Positions 3,068-31,208 of a stretch of 64,000 nt of DNA are shown here, in pieces. The notes beneath the pieces were generated by a model. The model ran no database searches. It was not told the DNA's origin and saw nothing but the letters and a program-made list of their open reading frames with translations. Position 1 is the first letter of the stretch. The number at the start of each line of letters is the position of its first letter. The position numbers were made by a program, and so were the translations under genes. The stretch is from Sutcliffiella horikoshii DSM 8719 (GTDB lineage: Bacteria > Bacillota > Bacilli > Bacillales > Bacillaceae_I), in contig LQXN01000062.1 of NCBI GenBank assembly GCA_001648575.1, forward strand, positions 1 to 64,000, read 5' to 3'.

Positions 3068-3232
3068 CTAATTGTTTTTTCCTTTATTTTGAATATATAT
3101 TTTATTTAGTGTTGAGTTGATATTATATAAAATTAAAAAAATAAACCATAACATTAAAAATGTAACTATTTCACCAGTAAAAAAAGACACTACTCCAATG
3201 ATTATAAAAGAAATCCTATACCACCAATCCAT
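3068..3232 (-). CDS. Small membrane protein, 54 residues
   Basis: ATG at 3232 follows AAAGGGGTAGG at a suitable distance, and the frame runs to TAG at 3068. The product begins MDWWYRISFIIIGVVSF and contains two hydrophobic segments (about 7-20 and 24-40) with a basic, asparagine-rich tail. Nothing in it identifies a function. It lies immediately downstream of the T-like hairpin that closes the next unit (3311-3345), which fits the pattern of one small gene per unit seen along the array. Confidence 0.6.
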   Translation of the reverse strand: MDWWYRISFIIIGVVSFFTGEIVTFLMLWFIFLILYNINSTLNKIYIQNKGKNN

Positions 3233-3310
3233 TTTCCTACCCCTTTAAAGATATAACATCTTTGTTATTATCCCCTTGATTATATAATTACTTTTCGACC
3301 AATACTTATG

Positions 3311-3345
3311 TAAGGAGCGAAACGCTTTTCTACAATCGCTCCTAT
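3311..3345 (-). terminator. Type-B spacer hairpin after the first copy of the duplicated gene
   Basis: GGAGCGA and TCGCTCC form the stem, preceded by TATGTAA on the plus strand. Minus-strand genes end just before it (3365). Related hairpins occur at 3936, 16042, 16462 and 29084. Confidence 0.65.
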
Positions 3346-3970
3346 TTAGTTGAGTAACTCTTTTTTAAGTATTTTGCTTGATTGCCTCTTCTACGTAACT
3401 AAGAAGATCTCTGTAAGGGGAGTTCCATTTCAAAAATTGCGAAACCACATCTAAAGGCTCTATCACTATATCTTTCTTTTTAGAATAAAGAACACTCTGA
3501 AATGTGCTATTACTCAACTCAACATTAGAATTGGATGAATAATTACGTACAGAATCAGATTCGTACCAGTAAAAATCTTGATTAATGTTATTTTTAATAA
3601 CCTCACCAACATATGCCCCTACACGTTTAGATAAATTATCAAAATGCATACTTAACAGTTTATTACCAAACTCCGTATTCATTAATCTTTTTGCATAGGT
3701 ATCAATATAACGAACGCTTTCAATAGTGAAATTTAAATTTCTTTTATTAAGGTTTTCTTTATCCCAAGAATCGTCTGATACATCTTGGTACATTAATTTT
3801 GCAATGCCTTGTAAATCTTCTTTTATTAATTTTTTCTTATGTAAGAAATTAAACATATAATGAGATTTCTCCTTTATCAATGACTATGTATATGTGTGAT
3901 AATGATGTTTATTATTCAACTCTTTCCCTATTCTTAAGTAAGGAGCGATCCACTATCCACTATGCTGCAA
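3335..3970 (-). repeat. Duplicated gene unit, copy 1
   Basis: These 636 bp match 15438-16073 at a constant offset of 12,103 with two substitutions that I can see (one silent, one Asn/Thr). The identity starts inside one spacer hairpin (ATCGCTCC) and stops inside the next (GCTGCAA), so the copy consists of one gene plus half of each flanking hairpin. Confidence 0.9.
3365..3856 (-). CDS. Unrecognised 163-residue protein (copy 1)
   Basis: I do not recognise the family. The product is polar and mostly helical by composition, with a basic N-terminus (MFNFLHKKKLIKEDL), a tryptophan/tyrosine-rich middle (DFYWYESDS) and no signal peptide or membrane segment, so it is probably cytoplasmic. A longer frame starts with TTG at 3880, but that codon lies on the ribosome binding site AAAGGAG. 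I therefore place the start at the ATG at 3856, 12 nt after it. The gene has an almost identical second copy at 15468-15959, differing at one residue, together with matching flanks. Confidence 0.7.
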   Translation of the reverse strand: MFNFLHKKKLIKEDLQGIAKLMYQDVSDDSWDKENLNKRNLNFTIESVRYIDTYAKRLMNTEFGNKLLSMHFDNLSKRVGAYVGEVIKNNINQDFYWYESDSVRNYSSNSNVELSNSTFQSVLYSKKKDIVIEPLDVVSQFLKWNSPYRDLLSYVEEAIKQNT

Positions 3971-3983
3971 TCGCTCATAGATT
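3936..3983 (-). terminator. Type-B spacer hairpin upstream of copy 1
   Basis: GGAGCGAT, a loop holding CCACTATCCACTATG, and ATCGCTC form the hairpin. In gene direction it precedes the duplicated gene and closes the unit to its right. Confidence 0.6.
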
Positions 3984-4067
3984 GTTGAATAAGATATTTT
4001 AATAAAAACTTCTTGTGAGACATTATTTTACTCAAAATTCTGCAACTGCTCCAAGTTAATGAATAGA

Positions 4068-4376
4068 CTATTTATAAATATATCTTTCAATAGTTAAATC
4101 ATATACAAAAATCTCATAAGAAGTTCCACTTCCCTTTTTCTTACTTTGAATTAGCAAACTATTGTTATTATTTTTTACAAGAAAACTGTTTCCACCTATA
4201 TGTCTTATATCTTTTACTTTGTATTTTTCTTCTCCAATTCCTTCTTCTAAAATACCTCGTATTATTTCTATCTCTTTTTCTGCTTTAAAGCTATAATATA
4301 ATTCTTTTGGATTAATAAAAAAGGCAATTAAAAGTAATAACAAAACAATTCCAATTTGCATAAAATATTTCTTCAA
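4068..4376 (-). CDS. Small membrane-anchored protein, 102 residues
   Basis: TTG at 4376 follows a G-rich ribosome binding site (AGGGGG) with an 8-nt spacer. The product has one N-terminal membrane segment (about residues 5-21, GIVLLLLLIAFFI), then a soluble domain of mixed charge with KDIRHIGGNSFLVKNNNNS. The topology suggests an extracytoplasmic domain tethered by its N-terminus. I see no family motif. A degenerate type-B hairpin lies upstream near 4432-4495. Confidence 0.65.
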   Translation of the reverse strand: MKKYFMQIGIVLLLLLIAFFINPKELYYSFKAEKEIEIIRGILEEGIGEEKYKVKDIRHIGGNSFLVKNNNNSLLIQSKKKGSGTSYEIFVYDLTIERYIYK

Positions 4377-4494
4377 TATCTTATCCCCCTAAATTAGCCC
4401 TTCTTCAATTAACCCGTTACTTAAGTATGAGAGGTCCCACATATGCTGCATTCACTATCTGAATCTCCGAACTGCTACTACACTCAATCGCTTA

Positions 4495-5048: not shown

Positions 5049-5085
5049 TAATACCAATTATTTCATAATTTAATAATTCCTACAA
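5049..5085 (-). promoter_or_regulatory. P element 1 (shared promoter) for the lipoprotein gene
   Basis: On the minus strand TTGTAG (5080-5085), 17 nt, AATAAT (5057-5062), with TGA just upstream of the -10 box and TGGTATTA after it. The plus-strand signature is TAATACCAATTATTTCA. Confidence 0.75.
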
Positions 5086-5107
5086 TAAATTATTTATCGA
5101 TTTGGCC

Positions 5108-5158
5108 CTAAAAACGAGCGCTGATCCTTGTTCCTGAATCGCACCCGATAATGGAATA
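5108..5158 (-). terminator. T element after the VanZ-like gene
   Basis: In gene direction GGGTGCGAT..GGATCAGCGCTC forms an imperfect stem around an AGGAACAA loop, followed by GTTTTTAGGGCC. P element 1 follows directly. Confidence 0.7.
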
Positions 5159-5844: not shown

Positions 5845-5900
5845 CCGCAAAAGAAGACCGCGATTCTTTCTCCGTTTTCAATTTTTGCGCCCGATAATGG
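5845..5900 (-). terminator. Degenerate T element after the broken acetyltransferase
   Basis: The tail GCGCCCGATAATGGAATA matches the T family, but the opposite arm (ACCGCGATTCTTTC) pairs only partly. It sits 12 bases after the 3' end of the frameshifted GNAT gene. Confidence 0.5.
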
Positions 5901-5911
5901 AATATTAAACC

Positions 5912-6356
5912 TTATATTACTTGAACTTTCATTAGGGGTAATTTTCTATCTGGAAAGACTGTTGATAGAGTAAAACCGGTTTTTATTGCTCCCATTTTTA
6001 AATAAAAACCTTCTGCTTTTGGCTCACTATCGAGTGTAAACTCATTCATTCCTAATTCTTTAGCTTTGTTCATTAAATGAGTCCACATTATTTTCCCTAC
6101 CCCTTTCCCTATATAATCTGGATCAATAAACAATGCCTCTAGTTTATAGTTTGTTATAGAGAAGCTATAAAATGCCATAATCCTATTATTTTGCTCTAAT
6201 AAATAGACAGGTTGTTCTTCTATATAATCCTCTGTTGCAGTTAGGTCCTTTTTACATTGTTCCATAAATGATTCTGAATCCCCAATATGCCTTTGACTTA
6301 TAAGCTAATTTACTGAGTGATTCACTATCTTCTTTTACTGCTTTTCTAATTTTCAT
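5912..6356 (-). pseudogene. GNAT acetyltransferase with a frameshift near residue 25
   Basis: Read from ATG at 6356 (AGAGGTG 7 nt upstream), the frame gives MKIRKAVKEDSESLSKLAY, then KSKAYWG, and stops soon after. The frame starting at 6265 continues the same domain as SESFMEQCKKDLTATEDYI. It carries DPDYIGKGVGKIMW, the acetyl-CoA loop, and EGFYLKMGAIKTG. Joining the two at about 6279-6282 (one base extra or two missing) restores a normal-length GNAT with the usual KAYWGYS-EFM block. As written the gene is broken; a sequencing error at this point would make it intact. The flanking T-type spacers show it was one unit of the array. Confidence 0.8.
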
Positions 6357-6405
6357 AAGCAATCACCTCTACTATTTATAACTAAGATATTGAAATGAAA
6401 TATTA

Positions 6406-6446
6406 ACAAGCGCTAATCCTTGTTCCTGGGTCGCGCCCGATTGCTC
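6406..6446 (-). terminator. T element after the class C-like serine hydrolase
   Basis: In gene direction ATCGGGCGCGACCC, loop AGGAACA and GGATTAGCGCTTG pair imperfectly. It matches the family loop and arm sequences. Confidence 0.6.
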
Positions 6447-6547
6447 AAGATCTTCTGTTAATATCTTACTAAACTCTCCATATTACTGATGATTTTAATT
6501 AAGTTAACAGACCCGTTTGCTAAGTGAGATTATTCACAAATTTAATA

Positions 6548-7639
6548 TTAAGGATAAAAAATATCGACTATATTATCTGATAAATTTTGAAGAGGAGCAT
6601 CACCAATATTACATAACATAACAAGTCCAAAGGTTTTGGCTGGTATCATAGATGCAAAACTACTAACTCCTGGATATCCTCCTGCATGTTCAATTGCCTT
6701 TGAATCACGCAACTTTTTAATTTTCCAACCAAGTCCATAGCTTAACCCAGGCTCTCTTTGTGCAATCATAGAAAACATTTTACTTCTACTTGATTGACTA
6801 ATGATTTTCTGTTCACTTCTCATTATTGCAATTAAATATTTTGCCATATCATTTGCAGTTGAATAGATAAAGCCAATAGGTGCCCCTAACTCATTATTAG
6901 GAGTCGGTATTTTTATAAAATCGCTTTTACTATATAAATAGTACTCATTCATATTTTGAGATGAACCCTTTGAGGGATTTATGTATGTATTATTCATGTT
7001 AAAGGGTTTTATAATATTTCCTATTACATATTCTTCCCACGTTAAACCACTTATTTTTTCTAAAACATCAGCCAAAATTACGTATGCATCTGTACAATAC
7101 AGCCATCCTTTACCTGGTTCATATGGTAAGTCAATATTTGAAAAATACTTTGTGATGTCTTCTCTGCTTTTTATTTTAGTAATAGTATCTTCAATGTTTG
7201 GACATTGTTTAAAAATAAATTGGTAATCTGGAAGATTTTTTGCGAATGTATATAAACCATTGTCCAGTAACGTCACAAGCCATATATTATCAGGGAAACC
7301 AGCAGTATGACTCAGTATGTGCTTAGAAGTAATTTTATTATATCTACCGCTCTTTGTTCTAAAATAAGGTAGATATTCAATAATAGGTGTATCTAAATTA
7401 AAATCAGTATTTTCTTCTAAATGTAACATTGCAATGGCAGTGATACTTTTTGAAATACTCATTATTGAACTGACTGTATCTTGTTGCATAGGTTTCTTTA
7501 ATTCTATGTTTGAATAACCATAATCGAAAGTGAAAATACTCTCTCCATCAGAAACTATATGTAAACTTAACCCAGGAATCTTATTCTCATTTATAAAGTT
7601 CTCAATCACCTGGTCCACTTTATGCAATGACTCAAGCAT
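6548..7639 (-). CDS. Serine hydrolase of the beta-lactamase/esterase (class C-like) family
   Basis: This 363-residue protein has the class C-like triad: SISK (SxxK nucleophile motif, about residue 61), a YCT-type tyrosine motif (LYCTDAYVIL, about residue 181) where YxN is usual, and HAGGYPG (HxG motif, about 317). No signal peptide is present, so it is likely cytoplasmic and acts as an esterase or peptidase more than a secreted beta-lactamase. Start ATG follows AGGAGG with a 7-nt spacer. P element 2 lies 80 nt upstream and a T element follows, forming a complete promoter-gene-terminator unit. Confidence 0.85.
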   Translation of the reverse strand: MLESLHKVDQVIENFINENKIPGLSLHIVSDGESIFTFDYGYSNIELKKPMQQDTVSSIMSISKSITAIAMLHLEENTDFNLDTPIIEYLPYFRTKSGRYNKITSKHILSHTAGFPDNIWLVTLLDNGLYTFAKNLPDYQFIFKQCPNIEDTITKIKSREDITKYFSNIDLPYEPGKGWLYCTDAYVILADVLEKISGLTWEEYVIGNIIKPFNMNNTYINPSKGSSQNMNEYYLYSKSDFIKIPTPNNELGAPIGFIYSTANDMAKYLIAIMRSEQKIISQSSRSKMFSMIAQREPGLSYGLGWKIKKLRDSKAIEHAGGYPGVSSFASMIPAKTFGLVMLCNIGDAPLQNLSDNIVDIFYP

Positions 7640-7710
7640 GGTCTAACCTCCTAGATATGTTTCTCAACACAATATGAAATATCCAAAGTAATTTAATATC
7701 CCCGTTTGCT

Positions 7711-7747
7711 TAATTCCAATTATTTCATAATCTAAAAATTCCTTCAA
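7711..7747 (-). promoter_or_regulatory. P element 2 for the serine hydrolase gene
   Basis: On the minus strand TTGAAG (7742-7747), 17 nt, AATAAT (7719-7724), TGA before the -10 box. The variant TGGAATTA replaces TGGTATTA. Confidence 0.75.
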
Positions 7748-7767
7748 TAAGATATTTTCTTGGCCAA

Positions 7768-7815
7768 TAAAAACGGGCGCTGATCCTTGTTACAGGATTG
7801 CACCCGATTGTTGAA
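7768..7815 (-). terminator. T element between the P2 promoter and the small plus-strand gene
   Basis: In gene direction CGGGTGCAATCC, loop TGTAACAA, GGATCAGCGCCCG, then TTTTTATTGGCC. This is the most regular copy, with a clear stem and U-tract, but no minus-strand gene lies directly before it. Confidence 0.75.
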
Positions 7816-9095: not shown

Positions 9096-9138
9096 AATAG
9101 GCGTTCCTTCTTAATTGAAGAAAGCGCCCGATTGCTGA
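9096..9138 (-). terminator. T element (variant loop) after the kinase gene
   Basis: In gene direction GGGCGCTTTCTTC and GAAGGAACGCCT pair around AATTAA. The outer GGGCGC and flanking AATCG match the T family while the inner stem differs. Confidence 0.65.
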
Positions 9139-9143
9139 AGATA

Positions 9144-9695
9144 TTATAAACCCCTATCTCTTATTTCTTTGATTATCAGTTCAACAATTTTATCTGGAGG
9201 TAGAGTTCCATCAATCACTATATCTGAATTAGGTTTAATACTGTTTTTCATTTCTAGATAGGCCACTCTTCCATATTGCAAATAAAATTTTACTTCATTA
9301 CGAACATCGTTAATGTTGCTTTTTGTGTGATCTCTAAGTATTCGTCTAGCCATTGCAACGTCTAAAGGAGTATCTATATAGATAGATAGATCAATGTATT
9401 TCTTCATATTATCGTTCCTATATGAAAACGGATAGTCTAGTAATATGTATGTAGGTACTTCTCTAGAGGATTTTATCCTCTCAATTTCTGAAACCAATGG
9501 TTCTAAATTCCAAAGGTTATAATCAGCTCCCTGATTCACCCATTGTACAATGTCATCTGGTGCGTTTTTAAAGTCATAATCATCAAAAAACAACTCTTTT
9601 GTATCTTCTAGTACTAAACTCAATTTTTTTGTTATAGTAGTTTTTCCTCCACCAGAGACAGCTGCAATTGAAATTACCTTTGGCTCAACACTCAT
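9144..9695 (-). CDS. P-loop nucleoside/uridine kinase-like protein
   Basis: This 183-residue protein has Walker A AVSGGGKTT near residue 15, a FFDDYDF motif like the substrate-binding region of uridine/phosphoribulokinase-type enzymes, YILLDYPFSYR as the Walker B strand, and RRILRDHTKSN as an arginine-rich lid. It probably phosphorylates a nucleoside or other small molecule. I chose ATG at 9695 because AAGGAG lies 9 nt before it; the upstream ATG at 9719 has no such site. The gene starts 23 bp after the stop of the esterase gene with no spacer between them, so the two form one transcription unit, unlike most genes here. Confidence 0.8.
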   Translation of the reverse strand: MSVEPKVISIAAVSGGGKTTITKKLSLVLEDTKELFFDDYDFKNAPDDIVQWVNQGADYNLWNLEPLVSEIERIKSSREVPTYILLDYPFSYRNDNMKKYIDLSIYIDTPLDVAMARRILRDHTKSNINDVRNEVKFYLQYGRVAYLEMKNSIKPNSDIVIDGTLPPDKIVELIIKEIRDRGL

Positions 9696-9718
9696 TCGTA
9701 TAAGCTCCTTATTTACCA

Positions 9719-10495
9719 CTATATTTGTAAAGAGAGAAACAATTCTCGCTTTCTTCTTTTGAAAAATCTATAAGAATGTTCAGCATCTGGAATAACCACA
9801 AATTTTGTATTTGGAATTTTATCTTTTAACTTCCTGTAAATGATTTGATTAGACTTTATAAATTCATCACTTAATTGGGTGCCTTCACCAGCCTCATTTG
9901 TTCCACAGTCTAAATAAATGGATTTAATAAGAGTAAGATCACTATCATCAATAAGTTTTTCTATTTCCTCCTGATTGGGCCAAAAGGAAGAAGATAAGCA
10001 AATAATAGTACGGAATATTTGGGGATATTTACAGGCAGCGTAAATCGTAATTAATCCACCAAGTGATATCCCTGCCAATAAGCTATTATCGTTAATAGTA
10101 CGGAAATTACTATCAATGGTTGGTTTCAGTTCATGTACTATAAACTCGATATATTGCTTTCCTTTTCCGCCATAAGAATCACTATTACCGGTTAATTCTC
10201 TTACAAATTCTCCACTCACCCATGGACAATACTCATTTTTACGTTCTTCAACGACTTGGTCAATGGCTACTATAATTACATCTATATCATTTTTTTCTAC
10301 ATATTCTTCTAGCCCTAACGAAACACCGCCAATTGCATCCTTATCTCGAAACACATTTTGACCATCATGCATATATAAAACTGGATATCGCTTGCTTTCT
10401 GATTTTGAATAACTCTTTGGAAGATATACCCGAACAAGTCTATTGTTCTTTAATATTGAACTAACCATTTGAAAAGCTTCCAGATCAACCACCAC
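9719..10495 (-). CDS. Alpha/beta-hydrolase esterase, enterochelin-esterase/EstD-like
   Basis: This 258-residue protein contains RYPVLYMHDGQNVF (the oxyanion-hole region), the nucleophile elbow GISLGG (about residue 139) and the C-terminal catalytic His in PDAEHSYRFF. The acid is probably in YLDCGTNEAGEG. This is the Fes/esterase D-like fold, whose members hydrolyse esters of siderophores or other small molecules. The GTG at 10495 is preceded by two overlapping AAGGTG sites; an ATG nine codons further in is an alternative with a weaker GGAAG. No P element precedes it. The kinase gene 23 bp downstream is probably co-transcribed, an unusual two-gene unit in this region. Confidence 0.8.
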   Translation of the reverse strand: MVVDLEAFQMVSSILKNNRLVRVYLPKSYSKSESKRYPVLYMHDGQNVFRDKDAIGGVSLGLEEYVEKNDIDVIIVAIDQVVEERKNEYCPWVSGEFVRELTGNSDSYGGKGKQYIEFIVHELKPTIDSNFRTINDNSLLAGISLGGLITIYAACKYPQIFRTIICLSSSFWPNQEEIEKLIDDSDLTLIKSIYLDCGTNEAGEGTQLSDEFIKSNQIIYRKLKDKIPNTKFVVIPDAEHSYRFFKRRKRELFLSLQI

Positions 10496-10578
10496 CTTTT
10501 CACCTTATTTTCAATCCATAATCCTGTCTGATTCTTGAAAATGTAAAAAGCTTTCTCTCTATAATTAAGTACGGCACT

Positions 10579-11337
10579 TTATTGCTTTAAATATCCCTCA
10601 TAAAGCAAATTCATAGCTTCCATAATTTTGTTGTCAGCAGCCTGATTTGTGAATCTATTAGGTAAATTAATAGCTGCTACTGCAAAAATAAAAGGATCTT
10701 CATTGAAGTCACCGATTATGCCAATATCAATCACAACATTGTCTAAGCCACCTGTCATATGATTTAGATGGTGTGTTGGAATGTGGTTTATATCTCCTTT
10801 TTGTCTAACCAGGCCATTAATGATTGGTGTCCAATGGAGAGGATGTGTTTTGTAGCCTTGAAAGATATGTATCATAACTTCAAGCATGTGGTTTAGTTGA
10901 CCCTTGTTTTCAATATCTCTTGGGTTTTCAGTAATACTTATTGTCGGAAAATAGGATTGGATTAAATTGTTTATCTTTTTCCAGCCACCACAATAATTCA
11001 CAATACATTTAGCAACATTACTATCGTGACAGGCAATCATGACTTCAACCGCCTCCCTTAAAGGAAGTGATTTTCTATTTTGTAAATGGGGATAAAGTTC
11101 CTTGCTATCTTCTTCTGGATTAAATGAAATCTCATTAACTAGGTCTTCCCAATTATATGTATTTTCCACTACCCATTTTGCTACACAAAATGCTATTGCC
11201 ACTTTTGCTGCTGATGCAAGGGGGACTGTGAGTTCACTATTTAAAGCAATATCATACCTATGCTCTTTGCTGGAAAATAATATGAGTCCTATTTCTCCGG
11301 AATCTATCTCTTTAAGTTTATCTATAACTTTAATCAA
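10579..11337 (-). CDS. Class A beta-lactamase-like serine hydrolase
   Basis: This 252-residue protein has the penicillin-recognising fold: SAAK (SxxK, about residues 42-45), SNV in CHDSNVAK in the place of SDN (about 105), and MTGGLDN in the place of the KTG box. There is no signal peptide, unlike secreted beta-lactamases. The proteins of this cytoplasmic Beta-lactamase2 group are of unknown function. TTG at 11337 is the start, with AAGGTG 7 nt upstream. Because the KTG lysine is replaced, activity against beta-lactams should not be assumed. No T or P element separates it clearly from its downstream neighbour. Confidence 0.8.
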   Translation of the reverse strand: MIKVIDKLKEIDSGEIGLILFSSKEHRYDIALNSELTVPLASAAKVAIAFCVAKWVVENTYNWEDLVNEISFNPEEDSKELYPHLQNRKSLPLREAVEVMIACHDSNVAKCIVNYCGGWKKINNLIQSYFPTISITENPRDIENKGQLNHMLEVMIHIFQGYKTHPLHWTPIINGLVRQKGDINHIPTHHLNHMTGGLDNVVIDIGIIGDFNEDPFIFAVAAINLPNRFTNQAADNKIMEAMNLLYEGYLKQ

Positions 11338-11358
11338 GCATATTCACCTTACCTAATT

Positions 11359-11982
11359 TCAAACTTTTGCATATGAATCTATTAGAGCAATCCATTCATG
11401 TCCTTGAGGGTACTGTATATTTAAGGACTCTTTTAACCAATCACGGTTGCTAGCATTTAATTTAGGTAATATATTTCCTAAATCGATAACATCTTTCTCT
11501 CTAATCACAGAACTTCCACCTTTATAAAGAAGTTGTATTTCTGGTTTTAAAAATGGTATACCAGATAAAGTTTCTTACCCAATATCTTCAATAGGCTTTC
11601 TTATTGTGTTGTCTCGTTTGTAAATCCAATCCTTCTCCTCTGTATCCAATAACATTACTTGGAAAGCCCAAGTTGATTCATCTTTTTTCTTTACCCAGAA
11701 ATTATCAAAATGAGAGTCTAGCAATTGATTTTTGTTCCAAGGTATTAACTGACCTTTATAAGCTATAAACATTTCCCAATCCCTACCCAGATGCCTTTGT
11801 AAAATTAAGTGGTCTGGTCTTAACATAACAATGTCAATATCAACGTGAGCCCTAGTGATTTTCTGTAAATAAATATCCAAAGCCCACCCACCAGCAATCC
11901 ACCATTGGACAGGGATTTGGCTGAAGATATTTTGAATTTCAGTAATAGAAAGAGGTTTCCAGACATCTTCATTATCTCCCAA
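11359..11982 (-). pseudogene. Aminoglycoside-adenylyltransferase-like gene with in-frame TAA
   Basis: The first 135 codons encode WWIAGGWALDIYL and HVDIDIVMLRPDHL, the signature of the AadB/LinB-like nucleotidyltransferases that modify aminoglycosides or lincosamides. A TAA at 11575-11577 interrupts the frame after RKPIEDIG. The same frame continues as ETLSGIPFLKPEIQLLYKGG and SSVIREKDVIDLGNILPKLN, then NASNRDWLK, to TGA at 11359, exactly the C-terminal half this family has (LL-K and the D..L..P.L..). So a 207-codon gene carries one nonsense codon. Start is TTG at 11982 with GGGGTG upstream. P element 3 lies 53 nt upstream. Substrate is not predictable. Confidence 0.85.
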
Positions 11983-12030
11983 CTTTTCACCCCATTTTTA
12001 TTTTCGATCATCCATCACTTTTATTTTTAT

Positions 12031-12063
12031 ACCAATTATTTCATAATCTACAATTTCCTACAA
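12031..12063 (-). promoter_or_regulatory. P element 3 for the adenylyltransferase-like gene
   Basis: On the minus strand TTGTAG (12058-12063), 17 nt, AATAAT (12035-12040), with TGA before the -10 box and TGGTATAA after it. Confidence 0.75.
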
Positions 12064-12089
12064 TAAGTAATTCCCCTCCTGTCCCCATA

Positions 12090-12138
12090 AAAATGAGCGC
12101 TAATCCTGTGTTCCTGGATAGCGTCCGATTGCTGAACA
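12090..12138 (-). terminator. T element upstream of P3
   Basis: In gene direction CGGACGCTATCC, a loop AGGAACAC, AGGATTAGCGCTC, then ATTTTTATGGGG. It lies 160 bp after the DUF218 gene. Confidence 0.65.
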
Positions 12139-12299
12139 ACTTATTATAAGCAACAGCTGAAATTAACCTTAAATATCAATTAATATCCTGTTTAATTTCT
12201 GCCTGAAGCTTTATCTACAAAATTAAGAACGTTGTGGAAGGAAGATTAAAGTTGGGAATCCTGCCTTTAATTAGTTTCATTTAGAATAACGAGACAAGA

Positions 12300-12980: not shown

Positions 12981-13087
12981 AACGTACCCCCTTTTTACAT
13001 AATGAACTCCAAACAATCTTTACTACATCATCACAAATTTCCATTATTTCCACAATAAGTTAGTTTAGGTAAACTATCGTCAAAATT

Positions 13088-13132
13088 AAAAACGAGCGTT
13101 GATCCTTGTTAAAGGTTGCGCCCGATTGTGTA
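13088..13132 (-). terminator. T element after the helical-repeat gene
   Basis: On the plus strand AACGAGCGTTGATCCTTG and GGTTGCGCCCGATTGTG mark the arms of a T element, with an A-run that gives the minus-strand U-tract. Confidence 0.65.
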
Positions 13133-13175
13133 ATATTTAAATAGAGTATTCAGGTTACACTCCGGGTTAGAGATG

Positions 13176-15114: not shown

Positions 15115-15467
15115 ATAATGCTCCTTTGCTCGAATTTTTTTAGACAACTGGCTGAATATGGAACAATCAATTAGCACCATCAACTAATAAAAGTTTCGTT
15201 TCCTCATACCAATTATTTCAAATTTTCAACAATCACACTATATATATTTCAGAACAAAATCGCTAACGTTTCAATGATTGTAGCTTTAAAATAAAGATTG
15301 ATTAAAAATACATTATAAACCCATAATTTACGATAAATAAAAAGAATCTATTTTGAAAAAAGATATATCAAAGTGGGTTCTTCTCTAGCAGATATAAGTT
15401 TGGTTTTATAAAAAATTTAATCATTTTCTACTCCACTATCGCTCCTATTTAGTTGAGTAACTCTTTT
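15115..15467. other. AT-rich intergenic stretch with weak P element
   Basis: It holds P element 4 (15207-15240) and, at 15436-15452, half of a type-B hairpin (CGCTCC arm only) where the duplicated unit begins. I see no coding signal in the remaining 200 bp. Confidence 0.5.
15207..15240 (-). promoter_or_regulatory. P element 4 (degenerate)
   Basis: TGAAATAATTGGTATG is conserved, but the position 17 nt upstream reads TAGTGT, not TTGNNN. It is the only P copy aligned here without a proper -35 box. Confidence 0.5.
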
Positions 15468-16073: not shown

Positions 16074-16087
16074 TTGCTCCTAGATAG
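16042..16087 (-). terminator. Type-B spacer hairpin upstream of copy 2
   Basis: GGAGCGAT and ATTGCTCC form the stem (one G-T pair), loop containing CCACTATCCACTATG. It closes the lipoprotein gene unit to the right. Confidence 0.6.
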
Positions 16088-21742: not shown

Positions 21743-22173
21743 AATATCCTCCTCAAGCAACCCGGATATCTCCTATATATGATGTAAGTTTTTTCTAGTG
21801 CATGTATTTTAATAAGTTTTCTATACAAATAATGGTTGAATTGATGGTTTTGATATTTAATTTAAATTGAATTTTGTAAAGAAATTTACTTTTACTAATA
21901 TTAGGTAAACCTACTCCTTTCATGATGATTATTGTATATTATTCATCACTTACTTGGTTGTAGAGGTACTTCTTTACCCAATACCATACCAAAAGCAGAT
22001 GCCTATTCTTCTGAAGTTAAAAACATTTGGTACTTGTGCGAAGTATAAGCAGCTTTGTATAACGAGTTGTTTCATTAAATGGCCCTAAAATGAAAAGTGA
22101 GCGCCACTTCTTGTTGCAGAATGGCGCTCGATTGTGGAAGACTCGATTTCAATATAATAATACATTTCTTCAA
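21743..22173. other. Intergenic spacer with a strong T element
   Basis: The only structure I see is the T element at 22098-22131 at the right end, belonging to the MBL-fold gene. The remaining 350 bp are AT-rich without a gene or P element. Confidence 0.5.
22098..22131 (-). terminator. T element with perfect stem after the MBL-fold gene
   Basis: GAGCGCCA and TGGCGCTC form a perfect stem with TTCT/AGAA inside and loop GCAACA. AATCG before the stem and an A/T tract after it match the T family. Confidence 0.75.
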
Positions 22174-22881
22174 CTATACAAACTGACCCTGGATGAGGTC
22201 TGATAAGAAAGAATCCACATCATCCTTAATCACAACCCCATGCCCTGTACAAAGGATACTTGGCCTAATCTCCCTAAGTTTCTTAAGCCCTTGCATAAAC
22301 AACTCAAAATGGTGCTTACTTCTCATCTCTTCGTTTTTTGCCCACTCCGAGATGAACTTTACATATTTATCCTTCATTTCTTTCCCATTGCCCGCAACTT
22401 TTTCATTTGGCAAAGGCTCACCAAAGAAACAAAGGTGGTCCCCACAAAACAGCACACCACTTTCTTGATGAAAAAGAGCAACAGAGCCTGGAGTATGATG
22501 ACCTAGGAAGATACACTCCAACCCGTTGATAGCCTCACCATTATCAGGGAGCGTTCCTGTAAGATTGGTTTTAAGATTTTCCGGCACCAGACTGAGATCT
22601 TCACTATGAATATAACTTTTTATGTTTTCTAAGAAGGAAAGTCCGCCGATGTGGTCTTTGTGACCGTGAGTAGCTATGAATGCGAAAATCTCTTCTTTTT
22701 TTAGATTGATTTCTGCCAAGGAGGTTTCTAGGTAATCAAAGTGCTCCTCTTTACCAGAATCAATAAGTGTGTATCCATTATCTCCCATCACTAAATAACA
22801 GTTATTATAGGAATTCCACGATTCATCCCATAAGAGAAAGCCATACACATGATCCGTTATTTTTTCAAAGTAGTATTTCAA
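22174..22881 (-). CDS. Metallo-beta-lactamase-fold hydrolase
   Basis: This 235-residue protein has THGHKDHIGG (HxHxDH zinc ligands, about residues 71-77), the later ligands in GHHTPGSVALFH, GVLFCGDHLCF and ILCTGHG. It is a single-domain MBL-fold hydrolase of the glyoxalase II-like type, cytoplasmic, substrate unknown. TTG at 22881 follows GGGAGGGG with 6 nt. It ends before a strong T element. Confidence 0.85.
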   Translation of the reverse strand: MKYYFEKITDHVYGFLLWDESWNSYNNCYLVMGDNGYTLIDSGKEEHFDYLETSLAEINLKKEEIFAFIATHGHKDHIGGLSFLENIKSYIHSEDLSLVPENLKTNLTGTLPDNGEAINGLECIFLGHHTPGSVALFHQESGVLFCGDHLCFFGEPLPNEKVAGNGKEMKDKYVKFISEWAKNEEMRSKHHFELFMQGLKKLREIRPSILCTGHGVVIKDDVDSFLSDLIQGQFV

Positions 22882-22965
22882 AAAAACCCCTCCCTGTTTA
22901 CACTCCGGAAAACTCCTCTTTCAACAAAGAATACATTTATCACTCCAGTTACCTAAAGATGAATT

Positions 22966-23202
22966 TCAAGGATTAATACTTTCACTAACATATAACCTAT
23001 CTATAAGTCGGTCTATTTTCTTTGAAATTCTTATTTGTAATACGATTATATGAATTAAAAAACCCACTACAATTCCAACTAAAGGTGCGAAAAATCCAAT
23101 AAAAAATGCTACTATTAATGTTGGTACTATGTACCCCAAAAGTACTATCATTTTGTTTATCCCCATTTTATTTACTGCATTCTTTATATTGATTGCTGCC
23201 AT
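22966..23202 (-). CDS. Small membrane protein, up to 78 residues
   Basis: Two hydrophobic segments (about 18-35 and 38-56 of the long form) and a charged tail (RISKKIDRLIDRLYVSE) are visible. The ATG at 23202 has no ribosome binding site and lies only 15 nt past the -10 box of P element 6, so it would be almost leaderless. The ATG 17 codons in (23151) follows GGGG by 9 nt and would give a 61-residue protein beginning MIVLLGYIV. The choice between them is open. No function is assigned. Confidence 0.6.
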   Translation of the reverse strand: MAAINIKNAVNKMGINKMIVLLGYIVPTLIVAFFIGFFAPLVGIVVGFLIHIIVLQIRISKKIDRLIDRLYVSESINP

Positions 23203-23210
23203 ATTGTTTT

Positions 23211-23246
23211 AATACCAATTATTTCATATTCTAAAAATTCCTACAA
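23211..23246 (-). promoter_or_regulatory. P element 6
   Basis: On the minus strand TTGTAG (23241-23246), 17 nt, AATAAT (23218-23223), TGA before it, TGGTATTA after it. Confidence 0.75.
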
Positions 23247-23271
23247 TAAATTATTTTTCATCCACGCAAAA

Positions 23272-23318
23272 AAAGAGCTCTAATCCTTGTTATAGGATTG
23301 CGCCCTTTTATGGAATAG
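23272..23318 (-). terminator. T element after the PdxH-like gene
   Basis: On the plus strand AGAGCTCTAATCC, loop TTGTTATA, GGATTGCGCCCT pair, with an A7 run upstream that becomes the minus-strand U-tract. P element 6 follows directly in gene direction. Confidence 0.7.
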
Positions 23319-24583: not shown

Positions 24584-24908
24584 AATCAACAACCCCTTTA
24601 CGGTTTTAAATTTACGTACTCAATAACTATTCTCTAAACAAATCACTAATCCTTCTTGATCAAAACTAACTCGTTAGTTCAAAGAACTTCACAATCTCTA
24701 TAATATATTTTGAAATAATTATCTCATTGTTTTTAAAGCGTTCCTCAACAATCTGGCCCTTTCATGAAGAAAGACGCTTTCTTATTTCAGAAAAGCGCCC
24801 TTTAATGGTATAAGCCTTATTTATATCTATTAACTGAATTGCTTTATATTCCTTTGCAGAGATATCATAAACTTCGTTAAATATTTCCCTGTTCCCAATT
24901 ATCTGCAT
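24584..24908. other. Intergenic spacer with T-family hairpin
   Basis: It holds the GACGCTTTC/GAAAAGCGCC hairpin at 24766-24805 preceded by CAATCTGGCCC, which ends the sigma/anti-sigma operon. Nothing else is visible. Confidence 0.5.
24766..24805 (-). terminator. T-family hairpin after the anti-sigma gene
   Basis: In gene direction GGGCGCTTTTCTGAAAT and AAGAAAGCGTC pair around a short loop. It resembles the hairpins at 14456 and 39653. Confidence 0.6.
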
Positions 24909-26435: not shown

Positions 26436-26601
26436 AGTAGTGGAGATTATATGGTGGCTAAACTTTTACTCCTCAAATGCACCCTATAATGGAATAACTA
26501 AGTAGCTTCTTTTAGCAGTATAATAAAATAATAAAAGTTGTCTTTCCAGGCAAACTAATAGTGTGTGTTCTCGTTTACATTAATCATTCAGCAGTAATAT
26601 G

Positions 26602-27048
26602 TTAAATAAATTCAAATATCCGTATATCCACCGAATCTAAGTAGCCTAATTCTTCTTTTAAGTCCCAAAGCCTTATTTCCGAGGTTTCTTCATTTTTTAT
26701 AAAAGGTTGTAGTTTTTTCACTTCTGTAAAATAAACTGGATTGTATCTAACTTCGCCACTTATTGCTTTTTTTGACTTTAATAATCCCTTAAATTCTAAA
26801 TTAGTCACTATTTGTCCTGTTTCCTCAAACAACTCTCTAATCGCACATTCTTTTGGAGTTTCATCACCTTCTCTACGTCCAGCTGGCAATTCCCATTGTT
26901 CACGCCATACGTTGTAACACATAAGATATTTTCCTTCACATTTAATTATCGCAAAGGAACCAGCTAAGGTTTGATATTTAAGCATATCTTCTTCACATAA
27001 ATTAATGAAATCAAGAAATTCAATTCCGTTGTCCTTGGTTAAGTTCAA
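26602..27048 (-). CDS. Nudix hydrolase
   Basis: This 148-residue protein contains the full Nudix box GRREGDETPKECAIRELFEE followed by TG (about residues 57-79). The substrate is likely a nucleoside diphosphate linked to another group, but the box alone does not tell which. TTG at 27048 follows AGAGGAGG with 7 nt. It stands alone between spacers. In integron-like and accessory arrays Nudix genes are a common cargo, as here. Confidence 0.9.
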   Translation of the reverse strand: MNLTKDNGIEFLDFINLCEEDMLKYQTLAGSFAIIKCEGKYLMCYNVWREQWELPAGRREGDETPKECAIRELFEETGQIVTNLEFKGLLKSKKAISGEVRYNPVYFTEVKKLQPFIKNEETSEIRLWDLKEELGYLDSVDIRIFEFI

Positions 27049-27210
27049 ATAGATTCCTCCTCTAAAAGAACGCTAAATCAATATTCTTTAATCGATCTAA
27101 ATCTCATTATCCGAAACCTTATACGGCAATCCCGCCTTATTTCTTAAAACCATTTGTTATAAATTAAATATACAAAAAATGTTTATCTCCTAACAAATTA
27201 GAAGCTACAA

Positions 27211-28014
27211 CTATTTTTTGGCCAAAATCGTAAAGAGTCCAGGAATATTATCTTCAATGTGGTCAGGAGAATTTTCCGGAAAAGCCCATCTAATTCCTGC
27301 TTCTTCTTCTAAGCTTTCCATTGTTAAACCAGCAGTAATAATTTCAGTAACGATTTCACCTAATCCCCATCTTCTAATACTATTTTTCTTTAATTTTTCA
27401 CGTTCTTTTTTTGATAATAACAAACTATATGCTACCTCGACTTGTTTTACTTCCTCATCGAAATAATTACCATTGGCAACTACTTTATTATCATCAATAT
27501 TGATTAGCTTTGATACAACAGGATGATAGTCTCTTAATACAAATTTACCACCAGGTCTTAACAGCTTAAACACTACTTCAAAAAGAGGATTTAAATCTAC
27601 GAAATAATGCAATACCCCCAATTCTAACAGTACATAATCAAAATCCCCTAGTTGTACTTGATCTTGAGATGGTAAGTTCAATACATCTGAAACTACATAA
27701 TTAAGATTGACTCCCGATGCTTCAGCTAATTCAGTTGCATATTGTCTATTTCCTTCAGAAATATCTACCACGGTTACACTAGCACCTAATAAAGCTAATG
27801 AAACTGCTTTATTCCCTTTTGATCCTAAAAGGTTGATTACCTTCTTCCCCTTAACATCACCCATGTAGTCTAGATAATGGGACACAGTCTTCTTAGGGTT
27901 TTCTTTTAATAATTTAGAATAACTACTTGGTGATCCATGGCGATTAACCCAGGCTTGATATGCTGCCTGATTCCAACCTATTTCATTTATTTTACTAAGT
28001 TCTTCTTGTCTCAT
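27211..28014 (-). CDS. Class I SAM-dependent methyltransferase
   Basis: This 267-residue protein has VINLLGSKGNKAVSLALLGA (motif I variant), VTVVDISEGNRQYA (acidic residue at the end of strand 2), FDYVLLELGVLHYF (motif IV region) and LLRPGGKFVLRDYHPV (motif VI). It is a soluble methyltransferase with unknown acceptor. AAAGGTGG lies upstream of the ATG. P element 7 lies 62 nt before the start, so the gene is a promoter-carrying unit. Confidence 0.85.
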   Translation of the reverse strand: MRQEELSKINEIGWNQAAYQAWVNRHGSPSSYSKLLKENPKKTVSHYLDYMGDVKGKKVINLLGSKGNKAVSLALLGASVTVVDISEGNRQYATELAEASGVNLNYVVSDVLNLPSQDQVQLGDFDYVLLELGVLHYFVDLNPLFEVVFKLLRPGGKFVLRDYHPVVSKLINIDDNKVVANGNYFDEEVKQVEVAYSLLLSKKEREKLKKNSIRRWGLGEIVTEIITAGLTMESLEEEAGIRWAFPENSPDHIEDNIPGLFTILAKK

Positions 28015-28067
28015 TTACTTTCCACCTTTAGATTAATTCTATAGTAATAAACATATCACCCCATATT

Positions 28068-28104
28068 TAATACCAATTATTTCATAATCTAAAAATTCCT
28101 ACAA
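28068..28104 (-). promoter_or_regulatory. P element 7 for the methyltransferase gene
   Basis: On the minus strand TTGTAG (28099-28104), 17 nt, AATAAT (28076-28081), TGA before the -10 box, TGGTATTA after it. Confidence 0.75.
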
Positions 28105-28130
28105 TATGTTAGTTTTCGCCCCGATGAAAT

Positions 28131-28178
28131 AAAAAAAGCACAAATCCCTATTACAAGATCGCGCCGTTAGTGGAAAAT
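28131..28178 (-). terminator. T element preceding P7
   Basis: GCACAAATCCC and AGATCGCGCCGTTAGTGGAA on the plus strand align with T elements, though pairing is partly lost. An A7 run gives the minus-strand U-tract. Confidence 0.55.
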
Positions 28179-28245
28179 CATTTATATTAATTGAAATGAG
28201 ATAAACTCATTAGTAGATTTGTTTAATGAATTTAGTATGTACAAT

Positions 28246-28716
28246 TCAGCTTATTTCTTTGGCATCATCTTCTCTTGTATTTCTAATGATATCCTCTAGT
28301 TCATTTTTTGTATCAGGGTGTAAAACAATCTTATTGGTAAGATCTAAGCTAGAATTTTTGACCTTCCTTCCCCAGTTCCTTGAAAACGAACGCCAATCAC
28401 ATATCATTTCAATGAGATATTTTCTGGGGATAGGCAAAGCCTGTTTATTATTCGGATCAACAATCCAATATTCCCAATGATGCTTATTTTTATGTTGATG
28501 GTGCAGCCAGGCAGATCTCCATTTCAATTCATCATCAGCACTTTTTTCTCCATCGTAAAAAAACTTCTTTGCATACGGAAAAAACTCTTTTGGTGAAAAT
28601 TTTGACAAATCATGAATAATGCCCTGGATGTATAATCCTTCTTTCCAGCATTCTATAAGCACGTTTAGTTTATGGTTCAGTATATAAAGGAAATACTTCC
28701 AACAAGCCTTTAACAT
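28246..28716 (-). CDS. DUF5662-like protein
   Basis: This 156-residue protein has IIHDLSKFSPKEFFPYAKKF (an HD-like pair), WLHHQHKNKHHWEYW (His-rich helix) and EMICDWRSFSRNWG, the pattern of the DUF5662 family found in phages and Firmicutes. The spaced His and Asp residues suggest a metal-binding helical hydrolase, not shown. ATG at 28716 follows GGAGG by 5 nt; the TTG at 28728 overlaps that site. No P element precedes it; a type-B hairpin lies further upstream. Confidence 0.75.
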   Translation of the reverse strand: MLKACWKYFLYILNHKLNVLIECWKEGLYIQGIIHDLSKFSPKEFFPYAKKFFYDGEKSADDELKWRSAWLHHQHKNKHHWEYWIVDPNNKQALPIPRKYLIEMICDWRSFSRNWGRKVKNSSLDLTNKIVLHPDTKNELEDIIRNTREDDAKEIS

Positions 28717-28841
28717 AAAAGCCTCCAATCTAACCGGTAATTGTTAGATTTATATTCTATATGGAAATTTCAATTCCTTCTGGTTTTAGTTCAATATAAG
28801 AAAAGCACCTAAAATTGCAGATTAATCTTCCATTCTTGCTC

Positions 28842-29027: not shown

Positions 29028-29083
29028 TTTATGTATCCCCCTTTATATTAATCAAACATTCTTATTGAACAATCCTACCCAAT

Positions 29084-29128
29084 TCTTAAGTAAGGAGCGA
29101 TCCGCTATGCTACAATCGCTCCTAGATT
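29084..29128 (-). terminator. Type-B spacer hairpin after the membrane-anchored protein gene
   Basis: GGAGCGAT and ATCGCTCC pair perfectly around CCGCTATGCTACA, with CTTAAGTAA and AGATTGTTGAA outside, as at 16462. Confidence 0.7.
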
Positions 29129-29159
29129 GTTGAAGAGCAATCTTTTAACGTAAATTTGA

Positions 29160-29549: not shown

Positions 29550-29640
29550 TTTATAATCCCCTTCCTCAATAATCCTGCGCCCTATTATTAAGTTAATGGC
29601 GTACCTTTTAGGTTATTTCTCAATGTTCTAAAATAAAAAA

Positions 29641-29883
29641 CTAATCCGTATTCGTAGGATTAATTTTCCTTGCTTTATAGAAAAACCAAACGGAAATGAA
29701 TAAAAATAAAAATACATAAGCATTTTCAAAAAGAAATGGCGGACTGGGGCTGCTTATATATGAGTTCTCACTAACATTTACGCCTACATAAACGATCGCA
29801 CTCCTTAGTCGCTCTAATGTGTAAACAAATCCACTTGCCAAAACAAACACCCAACCTAATAACCTATATGTATGATGCTTCAT
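29641..29883 (-). CDS. Small membrane protein, 80 residues
   Basis: Two hydrophobic segments (about 8-24 and 52-68) flank an extracytoplasmic loop with NVSENSYISSPSPPFLF. AAGGGGG precedes the ATG. P element 8 lies 44 nt upstream and a degenerate hairpin downstream, so it forms a small promoter-carrying unit. Function unknown. Confidence 0.65.
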   Translation of the reverse strand: MKHHTYRLLGWVFVLASGFVYTLERLRSAIVYVGVNVSENSYISSPSPPFLFENAYVFLFLFISVWFFYKARKINPTNTD

Positions 29884-29918
29884 GTGTATCCCCCTTCATC
29901 AAAAACCTGCGGCTAAGA

Positions 29919-29955
29919 TAATACCAATTATTTCATAATCTAAAAATTCCTACAA
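29919..29955 (-). promoter_or_regulatory. P element 8
   Basis: On the minus strand TTGTAG (29950-29955), 17 nt, AATAAT (29927-29932), TGA before the -10 box, TGGTATTA after it. Confidence 0.75.
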
Positions 29956-29994
29956 TAATTATTTCAATAATTTTTTCCACACCGGATAAATTAA

Positions 29995-30038
29995 AATAAG
30001 CGCTAACCCTTGTTATGGATAGCGCCCGTTTTGTTGAA
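29995..30038 (-). terminator. T element after the SEC-C protein gene
   Basis: On the plus strand AAGCGCTAACCC, loop TTGTTAT, GGATAGCGCCCG pair. P element 8 follows directly in gene direction. Confidence 0.7.
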
Positions 30039-30080
30039 GATCTATACCACTATAAAATACTTAACAAGTGTTTTACTCTT

Positions 30081-31208
30081 CTATTCAATGGTCAGATTAA
30101 ATAAATTTAATTGAAATCCCTTAATTAATGATTCAAATCTTTTTTCAGGATCAACATTTAAAGAAGAGCCAAATGCAGAAATTATGATATCTTTCTCTGA
30201 ACTGCTCAAGTTGTCTATTATTGTTGGGGAAAAATATACATTCTCGCTATATTCACCTAAACAAAAAGATATATATTTGAAAAGGAGCTCATCATCCGTT
30301 GTTTGTTTTAGTTTCTCAATTAGACGTTCATAACATTTATCATCTATATGCCTAGTTACGATAATTAATGATGTGCTTTCTCTAGGTATAACAGAAATAT
30401 AAAGAGAGGGTATGAAGAGGTTCTCATCATAGTTATATATGTTTATAGTCTCTTCACCAGTTATATCTACATTTACAGCTACTGCTGTTGTGCCAGTGAA
30501 CCCTACTCTAAATGGTAATTCTCTTTGAAATGTTTCAAGTTTATCATAAGAGTCGGTTTCATAAATTTCTTTGAATCTTCCATATTCATATTTTTTATCT
30601 TTTAAATCTAGCTTGCAGGATGTATAATTTATTAGAATTTTTGTTTCTTTAGTTGCGTGAGGATGCTTTCTAAAAACTTTCGGAAAGTGCCTACTTAGCC
30701 GTTCTTTTCTATGTAATTCAAAACAAAAAGCACGAAAGGCAAACCAGAAATGTTGTTCCTTTGATCCCACATACGCTATGTCTTCTATACTTGAAAAATA
30801 AGCTTTATCATGATGTTTACAAAAACCATTAAATCTACTAGCTTGATTTTTCCCAACCTTATCAAACTTTAGGGTAGGTAGGTTTTTATTTATTTCAAAT
30901 GCAAGATTATAGACATGATTGTCTGTTGCAATTTTATCAAGTACCCCATTATTTTGAAGTGAATGAGCTCCAATAATATTGTGTGAACACTCTTTATTAT
31001 CAAAACTATAGCATGTGTTAAAATCAGTCTCTCTGAATATTTTTTGTGCTTCAAATATTATTCTACCCGGGGTATAATTGAGATCTTTTTTACTAACAGA
31101 TTTGCTTTTCTTATAACAGCAAAATTTATATTTTTCCCCACTTTCACATGGACAAACCTCATATGGCTGAAATAAAAACCTTTTAGCTTCACTTTTAGAT
31201 ATAAGCAA
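30081..31208 (-). CDS. SEC-C zinc-motif protein with HNH-like region
   Basis: This 375-residue protein opens with CPCESGEKYKFCC (about residues 19-31), a SEC-C zinc-binding motif of the kind found at the end of SecA and in many accessory proteins. A second Cys/His-rich region (SFDNKECSHNIIGAHSLQNN and FCKHHDKAYFSSIE) resembles HNH-like or other zinc-bound folds. The rest is alpha-beta without a clear enzyme motif. TTG at 31208 follows GAGGGG. P element 9 lies 65 nt upstream and a T element follows. A role in nucleic-acid handling is possible but unproven. Confidence 0.75.
   Translation of the reverse strand: MLISKSEAKRFLFQPYEVCPCESGEKYKFCCYKKSKSVSKKDLNYTPGRIIFEAQKIFRETDFNTCYSFDNKECSHNIIGAHSLQNNGVLDKIATDNHVYNLAFEINKNLPTLKFDKVGKNQASRFNGFCKHHDKAYFSSIEDIAYVGSKEQHFWFAFRAFCFELHRKERLSRHFPKVFRKHPHATKETKILINYTSCKLDLKDKKYEYGRFKEIYETDSYDKLETFQRELPFRVGFTGTTAVAVNVDITGEETINIYNYDENLFIPSLYISVIPRESTSLIIVTRHIDDKCYERLIEKLKQTTDDELLFKYISFCLGEYSENVYFSPTIIDNLSSSEKDIIISAFGSSLNVDPEKRFESLIKGFQLNLFNLTIE

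Follow-up and report, generated by a model that had tools for sequence, protein, structure and literature searches.

A probable integron-like array of gene cassettes and its candidate Xer-family recombinase, Int280, in Sutcliffiella and other Bacillales

By what means does a bacterium come to hold some 28 kb of mostly single, unrelated genes that read in one direction and are separated by similar spacers? The question is raised by the window analysed here, i.e., the first 64,000 nucleotides (forward strand) of contig LQXN01000062.1 of Sutcliffiella horikoshii DSM 8719 (GCA_001648575.1), which form the start of contig C65 in a host assembly of 4.68 Mb and 67 contigs. We know of no settled account of how Firmicutes gather lone accessory genes. 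The stretch is probably an integron-like array, the units of which end at cores with inverted arms where Int280, a 280-aa Xer-like tyrosine recombinase encoded by relatives of the host, likely excises and inserts whole units. In the alignments described below, many of the units common to different arrays and species stop at such cores, and we infer from anatomy and association that Int280 is the recombining enzyme.

Among the 39 open reading frames (ORFs) chosen as genes between 2.4 and 31.2 kb of the window, 32 read leftward, and the spacers between them are assembled from recurring modules. The first is a terminator hairpin (T), for which a covariance model (R1) was built from 12 window copies that match it by construction; at E ≤ 0.001 it finds 13 copies in the window, all on the minus strand between 5.1 and 30.0 kb. 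The second is a promoter box of sigma-A type (P; TTGnnn-17-AATAAT-TGGTATTA; 11 copies aligned, one of them partial), and the third is another type of hairpin (CTAGGAGCGATTGCAGCATAGTGGATCGCTCC; five copies in the window). The folding of seven spacer hairpins (five T, two of the second type) gave z-scores of −3.1 to −5.8, and an Rfam scan of the window gave no match at gathering scores. The initial annotation, made from the letters of the window, had described mainly leftward genes with related spacers, which these counts bear out, and a composite T-P spacer by which each unit seems to bring its own promoter and terminator. T is indeed often followed directly by P, in 6 of the 13 copies, so that not every unit brings its own promoter; nor is the repeat unit simply T-P, recombination cores being present within the spacers or next to them. 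These cores also correct the impression that no attC-like site was visible.

A core consists of inverted arms of 13-14 bp (CTTATTCAACAATC and GATTGTTGAATAAG) around a 6-bp centre, GGGCGC or GGGCAG, inverted arms around a short centre being the usual form of a tyrosine-recombinase core. Two main types were distinguished by core matrices. S1 lies at gene ends (CTTATTCAACAATC-GGGCGC-NATCCTGGAACAAGG), and its right part and centre fold into the terminator; S2, which consists of just the two arms, lies after the promoter box or at gene starts (TTAAGCAA(A/T)(A/C)-GGGCAG-GATTGTTGAATAAG). Reverse-complemented, the right-arm consensus of S2 gives NTTATTCAACAATC, which is the S1 left arm, so that inverted arms flank a 6-bp centre at both the start and the end of a gene unit. 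Core-like matches whose centre is not GGGCGC number 213, and the tail of a promoter box immediately precedes 39 of them, in one case probably by chance; in the window a clear S2 core is kept by a single promoter box (17,126), those of the remaining boxes being worn. All 19 mapped window cores are intergenic. Sites keep to one strand in 41 of the 46 fetched regions that hold a site (some hold just one or two), and in five genomes the leading strand carries 144 of the 150 cores of the fetched regions (80 near the replication mid-point were set aside), a bias that transcription direction would explain no less well than a single-strand mechanism. The spacers and cores of the window are as follows.

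5049..5146, minus strand: T-P spacer with S1 core GGGTGC (5141-5146), terminator hairpin and promoter.
7711..7805, minus strand: T-P spacer with S1 core GGGTGC (7800-7805); best R1 match (60.9 bits), fold z −4.3.
16448..16513, minus strand: second-type hairpin spacer with S2-like core GGGCAG (16453-16458).
17353..17358, minus strand: S1 core GGGCGC, position weight matrix (PWM) score 45.9.
23210..23305, minus strand: T-P spacer.
24795..24800, minus strand: S1 core GGGCGC with a left arm of CCATTAAA type.
28068..28168, minus strand: T-P spacer.
29070..29135, minus strand: second-type hairpin spacer with S2-like core GGGTAG (29075-29080).
29919..30027, minus strand: T-P spacer with S1 core GGGCGC (30022-30027).
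31265..31324, minus strand: promoter box with core-like GGGCCA (31319-31324).

The evidence that whole units move, and that they do so at these cores, comes from an all-versus-all comparison of 48 joined regions around site matches (1.64 Mb including the window), drawn from 15 of the 16 sampled Sutcliffiella genomes (G001 was left out; labels of the type G000 denote sampled genomes). Shared segments of 250-6000 bp with at least 85% identity numbered 431, with 1158 unique endpoints; the two core matrices were trained without the window contig, and the motif was picked after junctions had been viewed. Within 10 bp of a core lay 122 of the 1158 endpoints (mean 7.15 and maximum 15 in 200 random shifts of the cores) and within 50 bp lay 297 (shifted mean 34.2, maximum 54), and all four ends were within 30 bp of a core for 17 of the 431 segments versus none in 50 shifts. 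An earlier test with the hairpin-model sites alone had found a site no more than 15 bp away for 7.3% of 2220 segment ends and for 0.5% of random places. Read by eye, identity switches directly after AATCGGGCGC in most of 39 listed junction pairs, small indels shifting some of the alignments; G004 and G014 share a 1440-bp unit at 99.4% identity, both ends of which are at this switch point. The breakpoints inside spacers that the initial annotation had predicted for gained or lost units were thereby found in other arrays and species, and its idea of cassette-like gene acquisition, with the likeness to integron cassettes, holds: whole units recur across arrays and species. An integron-like enzyme that cuts and joins at this kind of site is the likely reason why units of close similarity end there in other species too.

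The plainest single example comes from two arrays of G004, one with an empty and one with a filled site. The empty site in G004:C8 reads CTAACGGGAGC/ATTTGTTG and the filled site in G004:C1 reads CTAACGGGCGC/1.5-kb unit/GAATCGGGCGC/ATTTGTTG (slashes mark junctions), with the insertion exactly at the core and flanks that are 88.5% and 93.4% identical.

Two explanations that need no dedicated enzyme are weighed against this evidence. The locus could be an ordinary integration hot spot at which homologous recombination takes place between repeated terminator-promoter spacers, as the identity of the spacers (~72-91% over ~100 bp) and the position of the array between conserved genes would allow; we regard this as very improbable, because identity at the junctions is lost at the 6-bp core, past which the sequences are unrelated, a T-P spacer is wanting in the empty allele of the G004 pair, and there is an integrase element whose ends are of the same type. 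Alternatively, the spacers could be regulatory sequence kept alike by selection, or a repeat resembling miniature inverted-repeat transposable elements, between immobile units. The good sigma-A promoter and the terminator structure within the spacers agree with such an origin, which is nevertheless scarcely credible: whole genes recur in other species together with the adjoining spacers (identity up to 99%), which already contradicts immobility, the inverted arms lie partly outside promoter and terminator, and the sites are restricted to clusters. In the host genome, 26 T matches were found at E ≤ 0.001, of which 12 lie in the 25-kb array stretch and 25 are loosely clustered on five contigs rather than spread over core intergenic regions. 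All 16 genus genomes hold T hairpins, from 5 to 71 each at the same threshold, with the maximum in G014; in these genome-wide scans, scoring was limited to the 150 leading first-look candidates of each genome.

Within the window, the following units were recognised from their copies elsewhere. Copies of 9124-12138, 12121-13136 and 22105-23315 in the arrays of other species have all four ends near cores, and copies of 26476-28179, 6405-7790 and 5887-6404 have some ends near them, the identities for these six units being 91-96%; the 664-bp unit is duplicated within the window, its identity breaking at CGCTC of the second-type hairpin on each side.

3329..3992, minus strand: cassette copy 1 (171-aa gene), ending in second-type hairpins; 98.8% identical to 15432-16095.
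5887..6404, minus strand: unit with a short GNAT-family gene (117 aa) and S1 core 5887-5892; 92.7% to the G010 array; one end 3 bp from the core centre, G010 ends 634 and 115 bp from a scored core.
6405..7790, minus strand: unit with a beta-lactamase-family (PF00144) hydrolase and S1 core 6433-6438; 90.8% to G003; ends 31 and 13 bp from cores in the window, 31 and 92 bp in G003; 6405-7686 also 94.6% to G004.
9124..12138, minus strand: four-gene cassette (kinase-like, esterase, beta-lactamase2-family, nucleotidyltransferase-like fragment) between S1 cores 9124-9129 and 12121-12126; 91.3-91.6% to G007 and two G014 loci; four of four ends within 14 bp of a core.
12121..13136, minus strand: DUF218-gene cassette between S1 cores 12121-12126 and 13118-13123; 93.8% to G004:C1, every end 16 bp or less from a core.
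15432..16095, minus strand: cassette copy 2 (171-aa gene), duplicate of 3329-3992.
22105..23315, minus strand: cassette with a metallo-beta-lactamase-fold gene and a 78-aa ORF, S1 cores 22124-22129 and 23300-23305; copies in G005 (93.7%, no end more than 22 bp from a core), G007 (94.5%) and G010 (90.2%).
26476..28179, minus strand: cassette holding NUDIX and methyltransferase genes; copy in the G003 array 96.1% identical over 1717 bp, with a PWM core no more than 15 bp away at three of four ends.
28131..28839, minus strand: DUF5662-gene unit; 87.5% to contig C53 of the host genome and 87.4% to G014, with window ends off PWM cores.

Which enzyme would act at these cores? A genus-wide search for tyrosine recombinases found no intact Int280 in the host genome. 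Intact copies are present in 4 of the 16 genus genomes (G001, G003, G005 and G009); they are 96-99% identical across four species and lie at different genomic places, a second copy in G009 has an internal stop, and G012 carries a homolog of 64% identity. Int280 matches PF00589 and contains TGCRIGE, GKGDKER, HPHQLRHS, LGH and TRIYAQ, which we take to supply the R-K-HxxR-H-Y catalytic set. Against NCBIfam models it scores just above the cut-off for XerA (NF040815; 222.8, cut-off 220), far under those for XerC, XerD and the integron integrase (TIGR02249; 100.4 bits, cut-off 265), and below that for NF011946 (61 bits, cut-off 435). Its best PDB match is the XerC-like 4a8e, and XerD and XerA proteins are matched as well. 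Judged by sequence, Int280 qualifies as an Xer-type tyrosine recombinase.

The gene is part of a shared element of ~1.1 kb, compared in five copies, each with different sequence upstream and different sequence downstream. The left end is GGGCGC in three copies and GGGCGA and AAGCGC in the other two; the right end consists of a terminator, an outward promoter-like TTGAGT-17-AATAAT and then AGCAATCGGGC in three copies, replaced by AGCAATAGGG in both G009 copies. A predicted attachment core and an outward promoter beside the integrase gene make up an integron-like layout, as far as sequence tells. The initial annotation had seen no integrase; the window does hold a remnant of one.

17099..17248, minus strand: Int280-element remnant with, in order, the last integrase codons (EEYLYSKHV-stop), a terminator, an outward promoter and S2 core GGGCTG (17113-17118); 90.7% over 150 bp to the 3' end of the G003 element.

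Another piece of the right end lies on contig C44 of the host genome, and pieces of the element occur in the arrays of G000, G003, G010, G011 and G014; those of G003 and G014 hold the terminator-promoter part, that of G010 the first 199 bp and that of G011 an internal scrap.

A further set of recombinases was seen within arrays. An operon of four tandem Xer-like tyrosine recombinases lies inside the arrays of G007 (L163:2989-6449), G014 (L135) and G012 (L174); it adjoins a T site, and in G007 the recombinases have 276-293 aa, with a 1248-aa ORF that has a P-loop-like motif upstream.

Outside Sutcliffiella, homologs of Int280 (E ≤ 1e-70) were found in 57 of 299 sampled Bacillales genomes and 34 of 116 genera. 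Among the best 28 loci by score, of 54 genomes outside the genus, 16 have a scored core within 3.8 kb of the homolog, versus none of 28 reversed sequences; as a control, 4 of 378 pieces of equal length from 79 RNase J loci of other species held a core, the kinship of genomes being ignored. In G266, G091 and G223, from a genus of another family, arrays of up to 18 cores per 20 kb surround an Int280 of ~80% identity, all but one of the cores share a single strand within their region, and several duplicated units end at cores. Nine plasmid records have sequence homologous to Int280 by tblastn, some of it in broken pieces. Plasmid CP053689.1 has seven scored cores, several of the form CTTATTCAACAAAA-TGGCAG-ATTAGTTGAACAAGG, between annotated genes such as NUDIX and hypothetical ones. 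The integrase points against the array in some distant homologs (G035, G106 and CP053689.1), whereas it points along the array in Sutcliffiella. No homolog at E ≤ 1e-60 was found in 50,697 phage records. A 266-kb plasmid of Sporosarcina psychrophila (NZ_CP146247.1; L249) carries an Int280 homolog together with merA/merR, NUDIX and GNAT genes, with three scored cores nearby.

Several results weigh against an Int280-driven array. At the level of units, the nearest scored core is more than 50 bp away for 861 of the 1158 endpoints, which is likely due to transposons, divergence and other site types, and similarity continues through the hairpin in 8 of the 39 junction pairs. An automatic scan for empty and filled sites passed none of 32 candidates, two of which have 9-10-bp overlaps and resemble transposon insertions, and many others of which are far from any core; the G004 pair, found by reading, was missed because its empty core scored below the threshold. 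At the level of the enzyme, 11 of the 16 genus genomes, the host included, are without intact Int280 or a close homolog, G014 with the most sites (71) has just the terminator-promoter end of the element, and no part of the integrase gene was found in the fetched regions of seven genomes. Outside the genus, 12 of the 28 homolog loci are without a scored core and the P-box motif is present at 4 of 28. Genomes with Int280 (57) and with R1 sites (62) share 18 of 299, versus 11.8 expected (counted by hand), a weak overlap perhaps explained by the tuning of the R1 model to Sutcliffiella. The initial annotation had suggested that recombinase presence would track spacer number, and no clear correlation emerged in either the genus genomes or the order sample.

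These results bear most directly on the explanation that the cassette sites are real and worked by another recombinase, either host XerC/XerD or the four tandem Xer-like enzymes, with Int280 as a passenger. In its favour, intact Int280 is wanting in most array-bearing genus genomes, and the four-recombinase operons within the arrays of G007, G012 and G014 offer an alternative enzyme. It is still an unlikely account, since the Int280 element, the one whose ends were compared, is core-bounded on both sides and its homologs lie beside cores in other families. Host Xer/dif was set aside because the cores lack dif likeness: with a Bacillus dif sequence as query, the best match within 40 bp of 475 cores was no better than at 475 random places. 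The tandem operon was set aside as main enzyme because it is present in 3 of the 16 genus genomes.

We therefore return to Int280 as the probable enzyme, for which the following mechanism is proposed. Int280 would bind the arms and cross over within the 6-bp centre; excised units would form circular cassettes, which Int280 would insert beside the promoter of its element, so that this promoter drives newly captured genes. The element itself would be mobile, and the T hairpin (terminator) and P box (promoter) would serve as spacer modules that insulate and express each captured gene. The host genome would then hold a decayed array, in which the 3' end is all that is left of the integrase.

The closest known counterparts are integrons, including chromosomal superintegrons and clusters of attC sites lacking integrases (CALIN), with which the arrays share mostly single-gene, unrelated cassettes in the same orientation, a tyrosine recombinase, a promoter beside the integrase-side site and the existence of arrays that have lost the integrase. 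The integron trait of one-orientation units, each bounded by a predicted recombination site, is seen here as well. The differences are that Int280 is Xer-like and not IntI (TIGR02249 score as above), that the sites are plain cores with inverted arms, some joined by a terminator hairpin and some not, that many units carry their own promoter and terminator, and that the Sutcliffiella integrase gene is itself unit-like and reads in the cassette direction. In the pdif modules of Acinetobacter, which depend on XerCD, genes are likewise flanked by short Xer-type sites and are mobile as modules (PMC12907356); the present array has its own recombinase gene instead of host XerCD alone, arms unlike dif (no 28-bp dif-like sites were found) and long same-strand arrays. 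From XerA, XerC and XerD, the first of which it resembles in passing the XerA-type model and the second in its best PDB match, Int280 differs as an accessory gene that is nearly identical across species and bounded by cassette cores.

True integrons are reported to be nearly absent from Firmicutes, with one complete integron and a few CALIN listed by IntegronFinder 2.0 (PMC9024848). No description of such a Bacillales system was found in excerpts of the full-text literature, a body of text that leaves out subscription papers and preprints, and the integron-like enzyme is apparently undescribed. Taken together, the arrays read as an integron-like system of separate origin in Bacillales. Held less firmly than the integron-like build of the arrays, and still the better bet, is the wider proposal that Bacillales own an independently evolved integron, in which a self-mobile Xer-family Int280 cassette captures genes at simple inverted-arm cores with exchangeable terminator/promoter modules, on chromosomes and plasmids of dozens of genera. 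If true, this would explain why these genomes are so rich in single acetyltransferase, NUDIX and hydrolase genes and in genes for small membrane proteins, and Bacillales would have evolved, separately from other bacteria with integrons, a cassette platform and integrase of their own for the collection of genes. It would also be a compact, testable system (one 280-aa protein and one ~34-bp site), a handle on the movement of resistance-like and stress genes in soil bacteria and possibly a cloning tool for Bacillus.

The array is set between conserved neighbours, while its cargo mostly differs among the Sutcliffiella relatives compared.

1047..2280, minus strand: left anchor, nitroreductase (PF00881; 1047-1763) and Rrf2 regulator (PF02082; 1867-2280), by Pfam.
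32901..34616, minus strand: right anchor, RNase J gene (Pfam RNase_J domains), which keeps its place near the array in relatives.

A BCCT-transporter fragment, the nitroreductase/Rrf2 block and RNase J were found again in relatives by synteny, and the distance from the Rrf2 side to RNase J is ~30 kb in the window and 23, 24 and 26 kb in G008, G012 and G004, respectively, with few genes common to these loci at DNA level. Window 1012-2367 is syntenic in G008 (87.6%) and G012 (86.6%) and also occurs in the array region of G003 (87.4%). RNase J is retained in G013 and G014, where the fetched stretches did not reach the left anchors, and that of the window is 95% identical to RNase J of S. horikoshii biET1. 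The initial annotation had named even spacing of the spacers across core intergenic regions, or identical unit content and order in relatives, as results that would speak against its proposal; because content differs at the syntenic locus and the spacers are clustered, neither was found.

A Pfam scan of the cargo covered 30 proteins, 28 from the array and its left edge and two from the right edge (31520-32014 and 32287-32772). The families include VanZ-like, beta-lactamase, esterase, nucleotidyltransferase-like, DUF218, metallo-beta-lactamase fold, pyridoxamine oxidase, DinB-like, ECF sigma factor, NUDIX, methyltransferase, DUF5662 and GNAT; no Pfam family was matched by 11 of the 30 at E ≤ 1e-4. 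An additional pass gave the short GNAT gene at 5912-6265 and three small ORFs without a family.

Some further features accompany the array. A rightward block at 17485-20528, with an alcohol dehydrogenase gene (PF08240) and small genes, opposes the array direction and may be a non-cassette insertion. Positions 1-402 lie inside a repeat that is 99.8-100% identical to stretches of contigs C44 and C67 and that is presumably the end of an IS66-type transposase; C44 also bears T sites, and because the window contig starts within the repeat common to both, the array may continue on C44. A family of 100-220-bp repeats with inverted copies and the core GCTTTCCAGCGGGCGGTCC is present to the right of the array and near other arrays of the host genome, and looks unrelated to the cassette cores. 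Its copies in the window, all right of the array, are as follows.

36311-36460: repeat-family copy with GCTTTCCAGCGGGCGGTCC core.
41897-42118: repeat-family copy, same core.
44178-44317: repeat-family copy, same core.
45730-45942: repeat-family copy, same core.
54391-54497: repeat-family copy, same core.
58726-58976: repeat-family copy, same core.

Finally, G014 carries six copies of a transposon with tyrosine recombinases of 402 and 661 aa, which we take to be Tn554-like, and five of these copies lie in the fetched array regions (L114, L116, L133, L135 and L141).

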